Positions 16,235-21,577 of a stretch of DNA of 36,346 bases are shown here, piece by piece; positions within the stretch are counted from its first letter, which is position 1, and the number at the start of each line of letters is the position of its first letter. The notes beneath the pieces were generated by a model. It saw only the letters and a list, made by a program, of their open reading frames with translations. It ran no database searches and was not told the origin of the DNA. The translations under genes were made by a program, and so were the position numbers. Location: contig WLOK01000007.1 of the NCBI GenBank assembly GCA_009699315.1, positions 1-36,346 of the forward strand, given 5' to 3'. The DNA comes from Actinomycetota bacterium. Its GTDB lineage: Bacteria; Actinomycetota; Actinomycetes; S36-B12.

Positions 16235-17434
16235 GTGGAATCTGTCTGGATCTACCTGCTTATCGCCCTAGGCGTACTCGTCGTTGGTGCGGGTCTCTTA
16301 GTGGGGCTGGTCCGCGGTCGCGGGCGCACGCCGGCCAAGCCCGTGGCGACACGCCCTGCGGCACCAACGGTCGATCAGCTTGTCGACGCGCCAGTGATCG
16401 AAGCCCCAGATGCCTTCTCCGAAATTCTGGGTGTCGCGACTCCGCCGGCTCCGATGGTGGAGCATGTCGCCGTTGTCGAAGACATCGACGCCGCTGTTCT
16501 CGATGTTCCTGAGCCGGCCCGCGGCCGGCTCGGCCGCCTTCGTGCTCGCTTGTCGCGCTCAAACAACGCTCTCGGCAAGGGTCTCCTCGCTTTGTTGTCG
16601 CGCGACACCTTGGACGCTGCGACGTGGGAAGAAATCGAAGAGACTTTGCTCATCGCCGATCTCGGTGTTTCCGCGACGGCGGAATTGCTCGAGAGTTTGA
16701 AGACTCGCGTACGTGTGGATTCCGTACGAGACGCAGCCACCATCGAGGCCCTGCTCCGCGAGGAACTGCTCGCGCTTGTTGATCCGAGCATGGACCGTTC
16801 CTTGGCCACGGCCCGGCATGTTGATCGCCCCGCGGTTGTGTTGGTCGTGGGTGTCAATGGCACGGGCAAGACCACCACAGTGGGGAAGTTGGCACGCCTT
16901 CTTGTTGCCGAGGATCGCACCGTCGTCCTCGCCGCCGCCGATACGTTCCGCGCCGCGGCTGCACAGCAACTGCAGACGTGGGGCGATCGTGTGGGCGCCG
17001 CGGTCGTGACCGGCCCTGAAGGTGGCGACCCTGCAAGCGTGGCTTTTGAAGCAGTCGCCGTAGGTGTGGCGGCCGAGGTGGACACCGTCGTGATTGACAC
17101 CGCCGGTCGACTTCACACGAAAGTCGGTCTCATGGACGAACTGGGCAAGGTCAAGCGCGTAGCCGAAAAGCACGGACCCGTCGATGAGGTACTCCTCGTT
17201 CTCGACGCGACGACGGGACAAAACGGTTTGGTACAGGCCAGAGTGTTCGCGGAGGTTGTTGATGTCACTGGCATCGTGCTGACCAAGCTCGATGGCACCG
17301 CCAAAGGCGGCATCGTCGTGTCGGTCCAGCGCGAGCTGGGCGTTCCGGTGAAGCTCGTGGGTCTCGGCGAGGGCCCGGATGATCTAGCGCCCTTCGACCC
17401 AGTCGCCTTCGTTGACGCCATCATCGGCACGTGA
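16235..17434 (+). CDS. ftsY: Signal recognition particle receptor FtsY
   Basis: FtsY docks the SRP-ribosome complex at the membrane. The 399-residue protein starts with a hydrophobic segment (residues 4-25, ending LVGLVRGRGR), the membrane-anchored form found in actinobacteria. An acidic/Ala-Pro linker follows to about residue 90, then the NG domain: G1 GVNGTGKTT (about 204), DTFRAAAAQQL, G3 DTAGRL (about 287), G4 TKLDG (about 349) and the closing GLGEGPDDLAPFDP. A TGGAGG sits eight bases before the GTG start. It follows smc by 17 bases, a conserved pairing. Its partner Ffh is encoded at 21598. Confidence 0.97.
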   Translation: MESVWIYLLIALGVLVVGAGLLVGLVRGRGRTPAKPVATRPAAPTVDQLVDAPVIEAPDAFSEILGVATPPAPMVEHVAVVEDIDAAVLDVPEPARGRLGRLRARLSRSNNALGKGLLALLSRDTLDAATWEEIEETLLIADLGVSATAELLESLKTRVRVDSVRDAATIEALLREELLALVDPSMDRSLATARHVDRPAVVLVVGVNGTGKTTTVGKLARLLVAEDRTVVLAAADTFRAAAAQQLQTWGDRVGAAVVTGPEGGDPASVAFEAVAVGVAAEVDTVVIDTAGRLHTKVGLMDELGKVKRVAEKHGPVDEVLLVLDATTGQNGLVQARVFAEVVDVTGIVLTKLDGTAKGGIVVSVQRELGVPVKLVGLGEGPDDLAPFDPVAFVDAIIGT

Positions 17435-17438
17435 CCTT

Positions 17439-17454
17439 GTGACATACCTGTAAC
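17439..17454 (+). promoter_or_regulatory. Candidate GlnR box 1 upstream of amt
   Basis: GTGAC, six bases, GTAAC. This matches the actinobacterial GlnR box pattern gTnAC-n6-GaAAC at all but one position. It begins only five bases after the ftsY stop and about 150 bases before the amt start. GlnR is the global nitrogen regulator that activates amt-glnB-glnD in Streptomyces and mycobacteria. The gene for GlnR itself is not in this window, so binding is inferred from the motif and the target genes. Confidence 0.55.
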
Positions 17455-17470
17455 ACAAATCGCCCCCTTA

Positions 17471-17486
17471 GTCACCGGCATGAAAC
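17471..17486 (+). promoter_or_regulatory. Candidate GlnR box 2 upstream of amt
   Basis: GTCAC, six bases, GAAAC: a full match to the gTnAC-n6-GaAAC GlnR box. It lies 32 bases (about three helical turns) downstream of box 1, on the same face of the DNA. A further lone GAAAC half-site occurs at 17504-17508, exactly 22 bases after the GAAAC of this box. A TACCCT at 17556-17561 is a possible -10 for the operon, but no convincing -35 is visible. Confidence 0.65.
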
Positions 17487-17588
17487 ATCACGGGCCTTCT
17501 CCCGAAACGCGCTATTGCCAGACTCCGGAATGTCCAGGGGTCAATGGCGACTCCATACCCTTAGCCCGTTTTCAAGGAGGCTCTTCCT

Positions 17589-19252
<1,664 letters not shown>

Positions 19253-21577
19253 GTGGTTGCCACGCCGCTCGATGCCGCGCAACTTACGGCTACCTATCGA
19301 GATACGCGTGCCGAACTCGTCGCGCGCCCCGGGCAAGCTGGTCGGGGGCGCCGACGCGCTCTTACGGCACTGACCGACGAATGGCTGACGGAGCTCTTCT
19401 CGATGTCGAGAGCCGGAGATGCAGCTCTCGTCGCAGTTGGCGGATACGGCAGAGGTGAGCTTTCCCCTGGTAGCGACCTCGACTTAGTTCTGCTCCATAA
19501 GGGTGGCGATATTGCAGAGGCCGCTGACCGCATCTGGTATCCCATTTGGGATTCGGGCGTAAAACTTGATCACAGTGTTCGCACAGTCGCAGAATCGCGA
19601 CGGATGGCTAATGCTGACTTGTGGGTCCTTCTGGGGCTGCTCGACGCGCGCACGATCGCGGGCGATGACTCGCTGACGAAGTCTTTGATTGGATCAGTTC
19701 TTGGTGATTGGCGTGCGTTGGCTGCGTCGCGCATTTGGGATCTTCGCAAGTCTGTCGACACCCGGATTGAGCGCTCTGGGGAGCTCGCTCACCTGCTCGA
19801 ACCAGATCTCAAGGAGTCCTATGGCGGGCTTCGCGACATCACCGTTCTGCGGGCAGTCGCAGCCTCGTGGCTCACAGATGTACCGCACCAAGCGCTATCC
19901 ACCTCATCTAGTTTTCTGCTCGATGTCCGGGATGCCCTGCACCAATCCACAGGTCGGCCCGGTGACCGACTCGTGCTGCAAGAGCAGGAAGGAATCGCGC
20001 AGACGCTTGGTTTGGCTGGTGCGGATGCCCTTCTACGTGCGGTGTCCACCTCTGCACGGGCCGTTGCGTACGCAAGCGACATCGCTTGGCATCGAGTCGG
20101 ACGCTTGACTCGTTCGCCGCGCAAGTCGCCATTGCGACGAGGCATTCGCCGGCTCGGTCCCGAGCGCACTCCACTTGCTGACGGCGTAGTGGTGCAGGAC
20201 GGTGAAGTTGTGTTGTCTGCCGATGCTCGCCCGGATCGCGACCCAGTGCTGGCGCTTCGTGCTGCAGCTGCTGCGGCTCAGGCTGGCCTTCCTCTGGCAC
20301 CGCACACTGCAGAACGCCTCGCCGCTGAGAGCGCTCCCATGCCAGTGCCGTGGCCCGATGAGGCGCGCGAAGCATTGGTATCGCTCCTTGGAGCAGGTCG
20401 CCCCACGGTCGCAGTGTGGGAGGCGCTGGACCAGGTGGGCCTCATCACGCGTTTGATTCCCGAATGGGAAGCAGTTCGCTCCGCGCCGCAGCGCAATGCA
20501 GTGCACACGTTCACTGTCGACCGCCATCTCGTTGAGGCAGCAGTCGCAGCGTCCACTCGCACTCGTCGGGTCGCACGACCGGATCTGCTTTTGGTTGGTG
20601 CGCTGCTTCATGACATCGGCAAGGCGCGGGGCGGTGATCACACTGAAGTGGGTATGCAACTCGTAGCCGATATTGCTCCGCACCTGGGATACAACGACAA
20701 CGACACAGCCACCCTTGTATCCCTCGTAGAGCATCACCTTCTTCTGCCAGACATGGCTACGCGACGTGATCTCGATGATCCAGCGACGCTTGACGCTGTT
20801 GCATCGGCCGTCAGCACCCGTGACTCACTCGACTTGCTACATGCACTCACCGAGGCTGATGCCGAAGCGACTGGACCGGCGGCGTGGAGCGATTGGAAGG
20901 AGTCGCTCATCCGCGAACTCGTCAAGCGCACTCACGCGCTCCTCGAAGGCACTGCCCCCGTGCTCCTCCCGCGACTCGCTGAAGCCGATCGCGCACTCGC
21001 GTCTGAAGAGGGTGTCGTTGTCCGGCTTCAGATTGGTGCGCCGACTTCCACTGTGACCGTAGTTGCTCCTGACCGGCTCGGTTTGCTGTCGACAGTTGCT
21101 GGAGTGCTGTCTTTGCACCGGCTCCAGGTACGCGCGGCTGATACCGAGACTCTTGGCGATCGCGCCGTGTCAGTGTGGCGCGTGACTCCTCTGTACGGCG
21201 ATTTCCCGTCTGAGGACCTGCTTTCTGAAGACGTTCGGCGAGCCTTGTCTGGCAGCCTCGATGTGTCGGCACGACTAGCTCGCCAAGACGATGGCCGTCC
21301 AGTGCCACAGCCATGGGTGGAGTTCGTGCCGGAGGCCAGCGCCCGTTGGGACGTGCTTGAGGTCCGAGCGCATGACATGCCAGCTCTGCTCCACCGAGTC
21401 TCGGGGGCTCTCACCGAGGCCGGGATCTCGATTCAGGCGGCCCGGGTCGCGACTCTCGGTTCTGAGGTTGTCGACGTCTTCTACGTCTCTGAGCCGGCCG
21501 GCACCCCATTGACCGATGAGCGCAGAGCGCAGGCTCGGGGGGCAGTGTTCGCGGCACTGGCCCCGACTACCCTGTGA
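19253..21577 (+). CDS. glnD: PII nucleotidyltransferase / removing enzyme GlnD
   Basis: GlnD modifies and demodifies PII in response to nitrogen status. The 774-residue protein has the domains in order. First comes the nucleotidyltransferase with GGYGRGELSPGSDLDLVLL (about 62-80), then a helical GlnD_UR-type linker, then an HD domain with HTFTVDRH and LLHDIGKARGGDH (about 420-465). Two ACT domains follow near 600 and 702 (VVAPDRLGLLSTVAGVL and VRAHDMPALLHRVSGAL). All catalytic residues I can check are present, so both activities should be intact. The GTG start immediately follows the glnB TAA, with GGAGG inside the end of glnB as Shine-Dalgarno. In actinobacteria the transferred group is AMP. 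Confidence 0.96.
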   Translation: MVATPLDAAQLTATYRDTRAELVARPGQAGRGRRRALTALTDEWLTELFSMSRAGDAALVAVGGYGRGELSPGSDLDLVLLHKGGDIAEAADRIWYPIWDSGVKLDHSVRTVAESRRMANADLWVLLGLLDARTIAGDDSLTKSLIGSVLGDWRALAASRIWDLRKSVDTRIERSGELAHLLEPDLKESYGGLRDITVLRAVAASWLTDVPHQALSTSSSFLLDVRDALHQSTGRPGDRLVLQEQEGIAQTLGLAGADALLRAVSTSARAVAYASDIAWHRVGRLTRSPRKSPLRRGIRRLGPERTPLADGVVVQDGEVVLSADARPDRDPVLALRAAAAAAQAGLPLAPHTAERLAAESAPMPVPWPDEAREALVSLLGAGRPTVAVWEALDQVGLITRLIPEWEAVRSAPQRNAVHTFTVDRHLVEAAVAASTRTRRVARPDLLLVGALLHDIGKARGGDHTEVGMQLVADIAPHLGYNDNDTATLVSLVEHHLLLPDMATRRDLDDPATLDAVASAVSTRDSLDLLHALTEADAEATGPAAWSDWKESLIRELVKRTHALLEGTAPVLLPRLAEADRALASEEGVVVRLQIGAPTSTVTVVAPDRLGLLSTVAGVLSLHRLQVRAADTETLGDRAVSVWRVTPLYGDFPSEDLLSEDVRRALSGSLDVSARLARQDDGRPVPQPWVEFVPEASARWDVLEVRAHDMPALLHRVSGALTEAGISIQAARVATLGSEVVDVFYVSEPAGTPLTDERRAQARGAVFAALAPTTL

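Follow-up and report, generated by a model that had tools for sequence, protein, structure and literature searches.

A conserved three-box array predicted to be the GlnR-dependent promoter of the amt-glnB-glnD operon in an uncultured actinobacterium

The gap between ftsY (end 17434) and amt (start 17589) in the genome of an uncultured actinobacterium is 154 bp long, and the array of short repeated sites that it contains, which was read directly from the sequence, is very probably a GlnR-activated promoter of the amt-glnB-glnD operon. The window, i.e. the whole stretch of DNA that was analysed (36,346 nucleotides), carries the array directly upstream of this operon. What is described here is the standard actinobacterial nitrogen-starvation switch, intact in an uncultured actinobacterium, so the finding is of a well-known kind and of low surprise. 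The elements of the gap are as follows.

17439..17454, plus strand: distal GlnR box a3-b3, GTGAC (17439-17443), n6, GTAAC (17450-17454), read directly
17471..17486, plus strand: central GlnR box a1-b1, GTCAC (17471-17475), n6, GAAAC (17482-17486), read directly
17493..17497, plus strand: a2 slot GGCCT, degenerate and not conserved, at the -35 position
17504..17508, plus strand: b2 site GAAAC, at a fixed 22 bp from b1
17519..17524, plus strand: predicted -10 element CAGACT, exactly 10 bp past b2, without a -35 element
17574..17580, plus strand: Shine-Dalgarno sequence AAGGAGG ahead of amt, read directly

At least two boxes of the gTnAc-n6-GaAAc type stand in register with a 22-bp step, and a1-b1 fits the consensus. 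The original prediction had described two boxes 32 bp apart and a further GAAAC 22 bp after that of the second box; these coordinates and spacings were correct on direct reading. It had also placed all of the sites on nearly one DNA face, and this holds for a3-b3, a1-b1 and b2, since the box-to-box distance of 32 bp and the GAAAC-to-GAAAC distance of 22 bp correspond to 3.05 and 2.1 turns at 10.5 bp per turn. However, the GAAAC at 17504, which is indeed present, had been taken for a further half-site, while it is better read as b2 of a known three-box array with a degenerate a2 slot. Both this identity and the conserved -10-like element after b2 had been overlooked. No -35/-10 pair of the sigma-70 type was found in 17300-17700, and neither an ordinary sigma-70 promoter nor an intrinsic terminator was found in the ftsY-amt gap.

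The genes around the array were identified from their open reading frames and NCBIfam matches, and those downstream are the three that had been claimed (amt, a PII gene and glnD).

16235..17434, plus strand: ftsY, upstream neighbour (TIGR00064, 330.6 bits against a cut-off of 260.7)
17589..18914, plus strand: amt, ammonium transporter (TIGR00836, 465.8 bits against a cut-off of 343.3; PF00909)
18914..19252, plus strand: glnB/glnK, PII signal protein, an ORF whose start overlaps the amt stop
19253..21577, plus strand: glnD, PII nucleotidyltransferase (NF002895, 946.9 bits against a cut-off of 631)

The best NCBIfam match of glnB/glnK is nitrogen regulatory protein P-II, under the equivalog cut-off, and glnD starts at the base directly after the glnB stop. 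ftsY stops 5 bp ahead of the array and is outside the regulated unit. The amt gene (PF00909) is the sole copy in this genome assembly. A second amt, 61% identical, exists in the one other genome compared from the same genus (L010; G001 C9:1561-2835); the window's genome, itself about 91% complete, yielded no such second copy.

Operons of the same content are also targets of AmtR, the TetR-type repressor that controls them in Corynebacterium, and AmtR control of this operon was weighed for that reason. AmtR recognizes the palindrome tttCTATN6AtAGat/aA (PMC2723105). CTAT-n6-ATAG with up to 2 mismatches is absent from 17435-17588 and its window-wide matches are at chance level, so the remark in the original prediction that the motif does not suggest AmtR-type control was borne out. 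With the palindrome missing from the gap, AmtR control was rejected as highly improbable.

Short, loose motifs may match by chance, and single boxes indeed do so here. The loose box KTNAC-n6-GNAAC has two matches in the window, both of them in the ftsY-amt gap, and 1.64 were expected for the window, which is no excess; genome-wide, GTNAC-n6-GAAAC has 8 matches and the reversed control 13, again without excess. In contrast to these chance-level counts, the composite KTNAC-n6-GNAAC-n17-GNAAC has one occurrence in the 2.1-Mb genome, namely the amt array, and none in the control. Scored with a 54-column matrix, whose training set came from other genera and excluded the window as well as L012 and L013 (its two closest relatives), the amt array reaches 39.9 bits, while the runner-up place in the window reaches 2.4 bits and ten shuffled windows do not exceed 4.9 bits. 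Likewise, a sequence-only model of the same columns, trained without this site, returns the amt array as the top match of the genome (E = 6e-6). The array is far beyond chance, while single boxes are uninformative alone. Together with the conservation described below (72 of 80 loci), which refutes a chance origin, the score and the single occurrence per genome leave that explanation a negligible probability.

In order to assess conservation, 300 bp upstream of amt were searched at 80 actinobacterial loci (the upstream stretches long enough to test, window included) from the window's group, Streptomyces, Actinomadura, Amycolatopsis, Mycobacterium, Frankiales and others. The arrangement a1-n6-b1-n17-b2 is found in 72 of the 80 amt upstreams; shuffling the stretches gave 0.1, and none of 78 control stretches, taken 700-1000 bp upstream, had it. 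In 41 non-redundant amt promoters the a1, b1 and b2 columns are almost invariant, partly by selection, as the promoters were put in register by these sites; the b2 columns (+33 to +37) are nearly invariant both in these 41 promoters and in alignment A1, and the central-box columns are near-invariant in alignment A1 too. Two further features lie outside the selection criteria. In 36 of 44 non-redundant loci a b-type site occupies the place of b3, 20 or 21 bp upstream of a1, and the hexamer ten bases past b2 has A at position 2 (+49) and T at position 6 (+53) in all 41 promoters. Since the selection used neither, the b3 and -10 columns represent independent conservation. The a2 slot (+22 to +26) has 0.05-0.42 bits per column in the 41 non-redundant promoters, i.e. 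no conservation.

Among 20 further amt upstreams inside the family, most have the array, several of them weakly, and one is without it. The boxes, whose lack of conservation upstream of amt in close relatives had been named as a reason to give up the prediction, are thus conserved in close and distant relatives. As a separate observation, the amt upstreams of L035 and L086 (both Sinomonas) and L044 (a Propionibacteriaceae MAG) have no canonical array or a weak form of it, and these three loci are candidates for altered amt control.

The anatomy can be compared with known systems. The amtB promoter of S. coelicolor contains three GlnR boxes, a3-b3, a1-b1 and a2-b2, of which a3-b3 is essential, while a2 (GGGCT) is atypical, dispensable and located at the -35 position (PMC5826061). 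The array described here shares the three-box order, the 22-bp step from b1 to b2 and the amt-PII-glnD operon with that promoter, and a2 is degenerate and at the -35 position in both (GGCCT here, GGGCT in Streptomyces; PMC5826061). The distance from b3 to a1 is 21 bp here, in contrast to 20 bp in the Streptomyces loci collected, and the b3 sequence GTAAC is a variant that is also on the S. venezuelae list. In M. smegmatis, where amtB, amt1 and glnA1 have such sites, an OmpR-type GlnR acts before amtB and glnA, as predicted here, and the mycobacterial core AC-n9-AC fits the boxes of the array (PMC3662644).

The a3-b3 box of S. coelicolor is a binding site of PhoP as well as of GlnR (PMC5826061), and the window's genome encodes a RegX3 orthologue (match to 2oqr, 6.5e-111). 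A PhoP/RegX3 orthologue might therefore compete for a3-b3 and link phosphate to nitrogen, which would add to GlnR control. However, the GTGAC-n6-GTAAC of the present a3-b3 conforms to the GlnR pattern, and we consider such competition possible but rather doubtful.

For GlnR control of the operon, a regulator has to be encoded. The search of the window's genome gave six genes whose products have a DNA-binding domain of the OmpR type, and one of them (G000 C123, L002; 251 aa counted from the chosen start) is the GlnR orthologue. Its top matches among solved structures are 8hih (1.9e-79) and 8hig (1.2e-77), with a DNA-binding domain alignment that is nearly identical through the recognition helix, and a receiver-domain entry named GlnR (4o1h) also matches it. 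In the search output 8hih and 8hig carry only the name transcriptional regulator; we take both to come from the work of Shi et al. 2023 on GlnR complexes. None of the NCBIfam equivalog models called the regulator, which was identified from its PDB match and from orthologue identity. Within the family, a GlnR match is present in 52 of 59 genomes, full-length in most of them, and the orthologue in 34 of 36 good genomes. A genome without a glnR homologue had been named as the other ground for dropping the idea; the orthologue was found, and it supports, along with the conservation of the array, the earlier reading that GlnR controls the amt operon.

From the sequence we infer that GlnR binds the array, that it activates rather than represses, that transcription starts at about 17531, and which of the sites are essential. 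Under nitrogen limitation, GlnR molecules would bind head to tail on a3-b3, a1-b1 and b2, and the promoter-proximal subunits would occupy the place of the missing -35 element. In this position GlnR may keep RNA polymerase at CAGACT, a weak -10 element, and the outcome would be production of the ammonium transporter and of the PII/GlnD control pair. Because there is no -35 element and the distance from b2 to the -10 element is fixed, GlnR filling the -35 place and recruiting RNA polymerase would be the simplest mechanism. The 10-bp spacing resembles PhoB-type activation. In the GlnR-dependent transcription activation complex (Shi et al. 2023, as described in PMC10704036), head-to-tail DNA-binding domains occupy a four-site promoter beside RNA polymerase, and the anatomy predicted here fits this arrangement, which is known from a solved structure.

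The main reader of the array might also be MtrA instead of GlnR, acting as a repressor in rich conditions or competing for the sites. MtrA is encoded in the window's genome (L004; 385.8 bits against a cut-off of 300). Streptomyces MtrA represses amtB, glnA and glnD and binds the same promoters, and the amtB, glnA and glnR promoters are both bound and repressed by it (PMC9045223). Moreover, a sister genus retains the array without a detected GlnR. Against these points, the GlnR orthologue is present here and in nearly all good family genomes, a conserved -10 element at a constant 10 bp from b2, with no -35 element, resembles an activator site, and a review assigns the decisive role to GlnR (PMC10704036). 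Taken together, MtrA as the main reader is unlikely, and GlnR is preferred.

The sister genus (g4) is represented by two drafts, G004 and G016 (93% and 89% complete), in which no GlnR was found even at a loose threshold; the best matches of the GlnR search are 36-42% identical, mainly in the C-terminal part. Their amt arrays are intact, with matrix scores of 23.9 (L199, G004) and 35.0 (L200, G016). Since these two genomes keep the array without a detected GlnR, the array alone is no proof that GlnR reads it. The chance that glnR was missed in both drafts is about 0.8% if the gaps are independent, which binning gaps are not. If g4 has truly lost glnR, its GlnR boxes could have passed to a different OmpR-type regulator, with MtrA as the likeliest candidate, a scenario to which we give a low probability. 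Were it true, nitrogen control of ammonium uptake in part of the family would depend on another signal.

With GlnR as the probable reader, the switch before ammonium uptake appears to be kept to the spacing in small-genome uncultured actinobacteria. The footprint seen in different genera gives a testable rule, in which a1, b1 and b2 stand in an 11/22-bp register, a2 is free, and the A and T of the -10 element are fixed, 10 bp past b2. With such a rule GlnR targets can be predicted more easily than from loose consensus boxes, whose frequency is that of chance.

To look for other targets, an array model (R1) built from amt promoters alone was run over 59 family genomes. Each of its best 16 matches (E up to 0.0056) has amt or glnA downstream: 14 are followed by amt, the one in L118 by an amt that is truncated at the contig end, and the one in L125 by glnA. 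Two more glnA promoters were found among weaker matches (L128 and L138), so that a model trained on amt only, in other genera, detects glnA promoters in three other family genomes. The matches beyond the first 16 were partly checked; some lie before glnA, and others, which are probably chance matches, fall within coding sequence or precede unrelated genes.

In the window's own genome, glnA is preceded by GAAAC-n6-GAAAC-n17-GAAAT-n10-TAGGCT (L103:1042-1095), 147 bp before the ATG. The R1 search of this genome did not list the site, despite its matrix score of 13.3 bits, a score matched by 0 of 2000 shuffles. Judging from its amt-like geometry, glnA is likely a second GlnR target. The mycobacterial GlnR regulon exceeds 100 genes (PMC3662644), in contrast to only amt and glnA here, where the regulon was sampled by searches limited to this array form.

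An array-like match also exists in another family genome at L130:1501-1542 (G019 C36), with the sequence ACACAGGCGAAAC...GCGAAACACTCCC and E = 0.03. This site is possibly a further GlnR target in the family, and the ORF right after it resembles a circularly permuted ATP-grasp protein.
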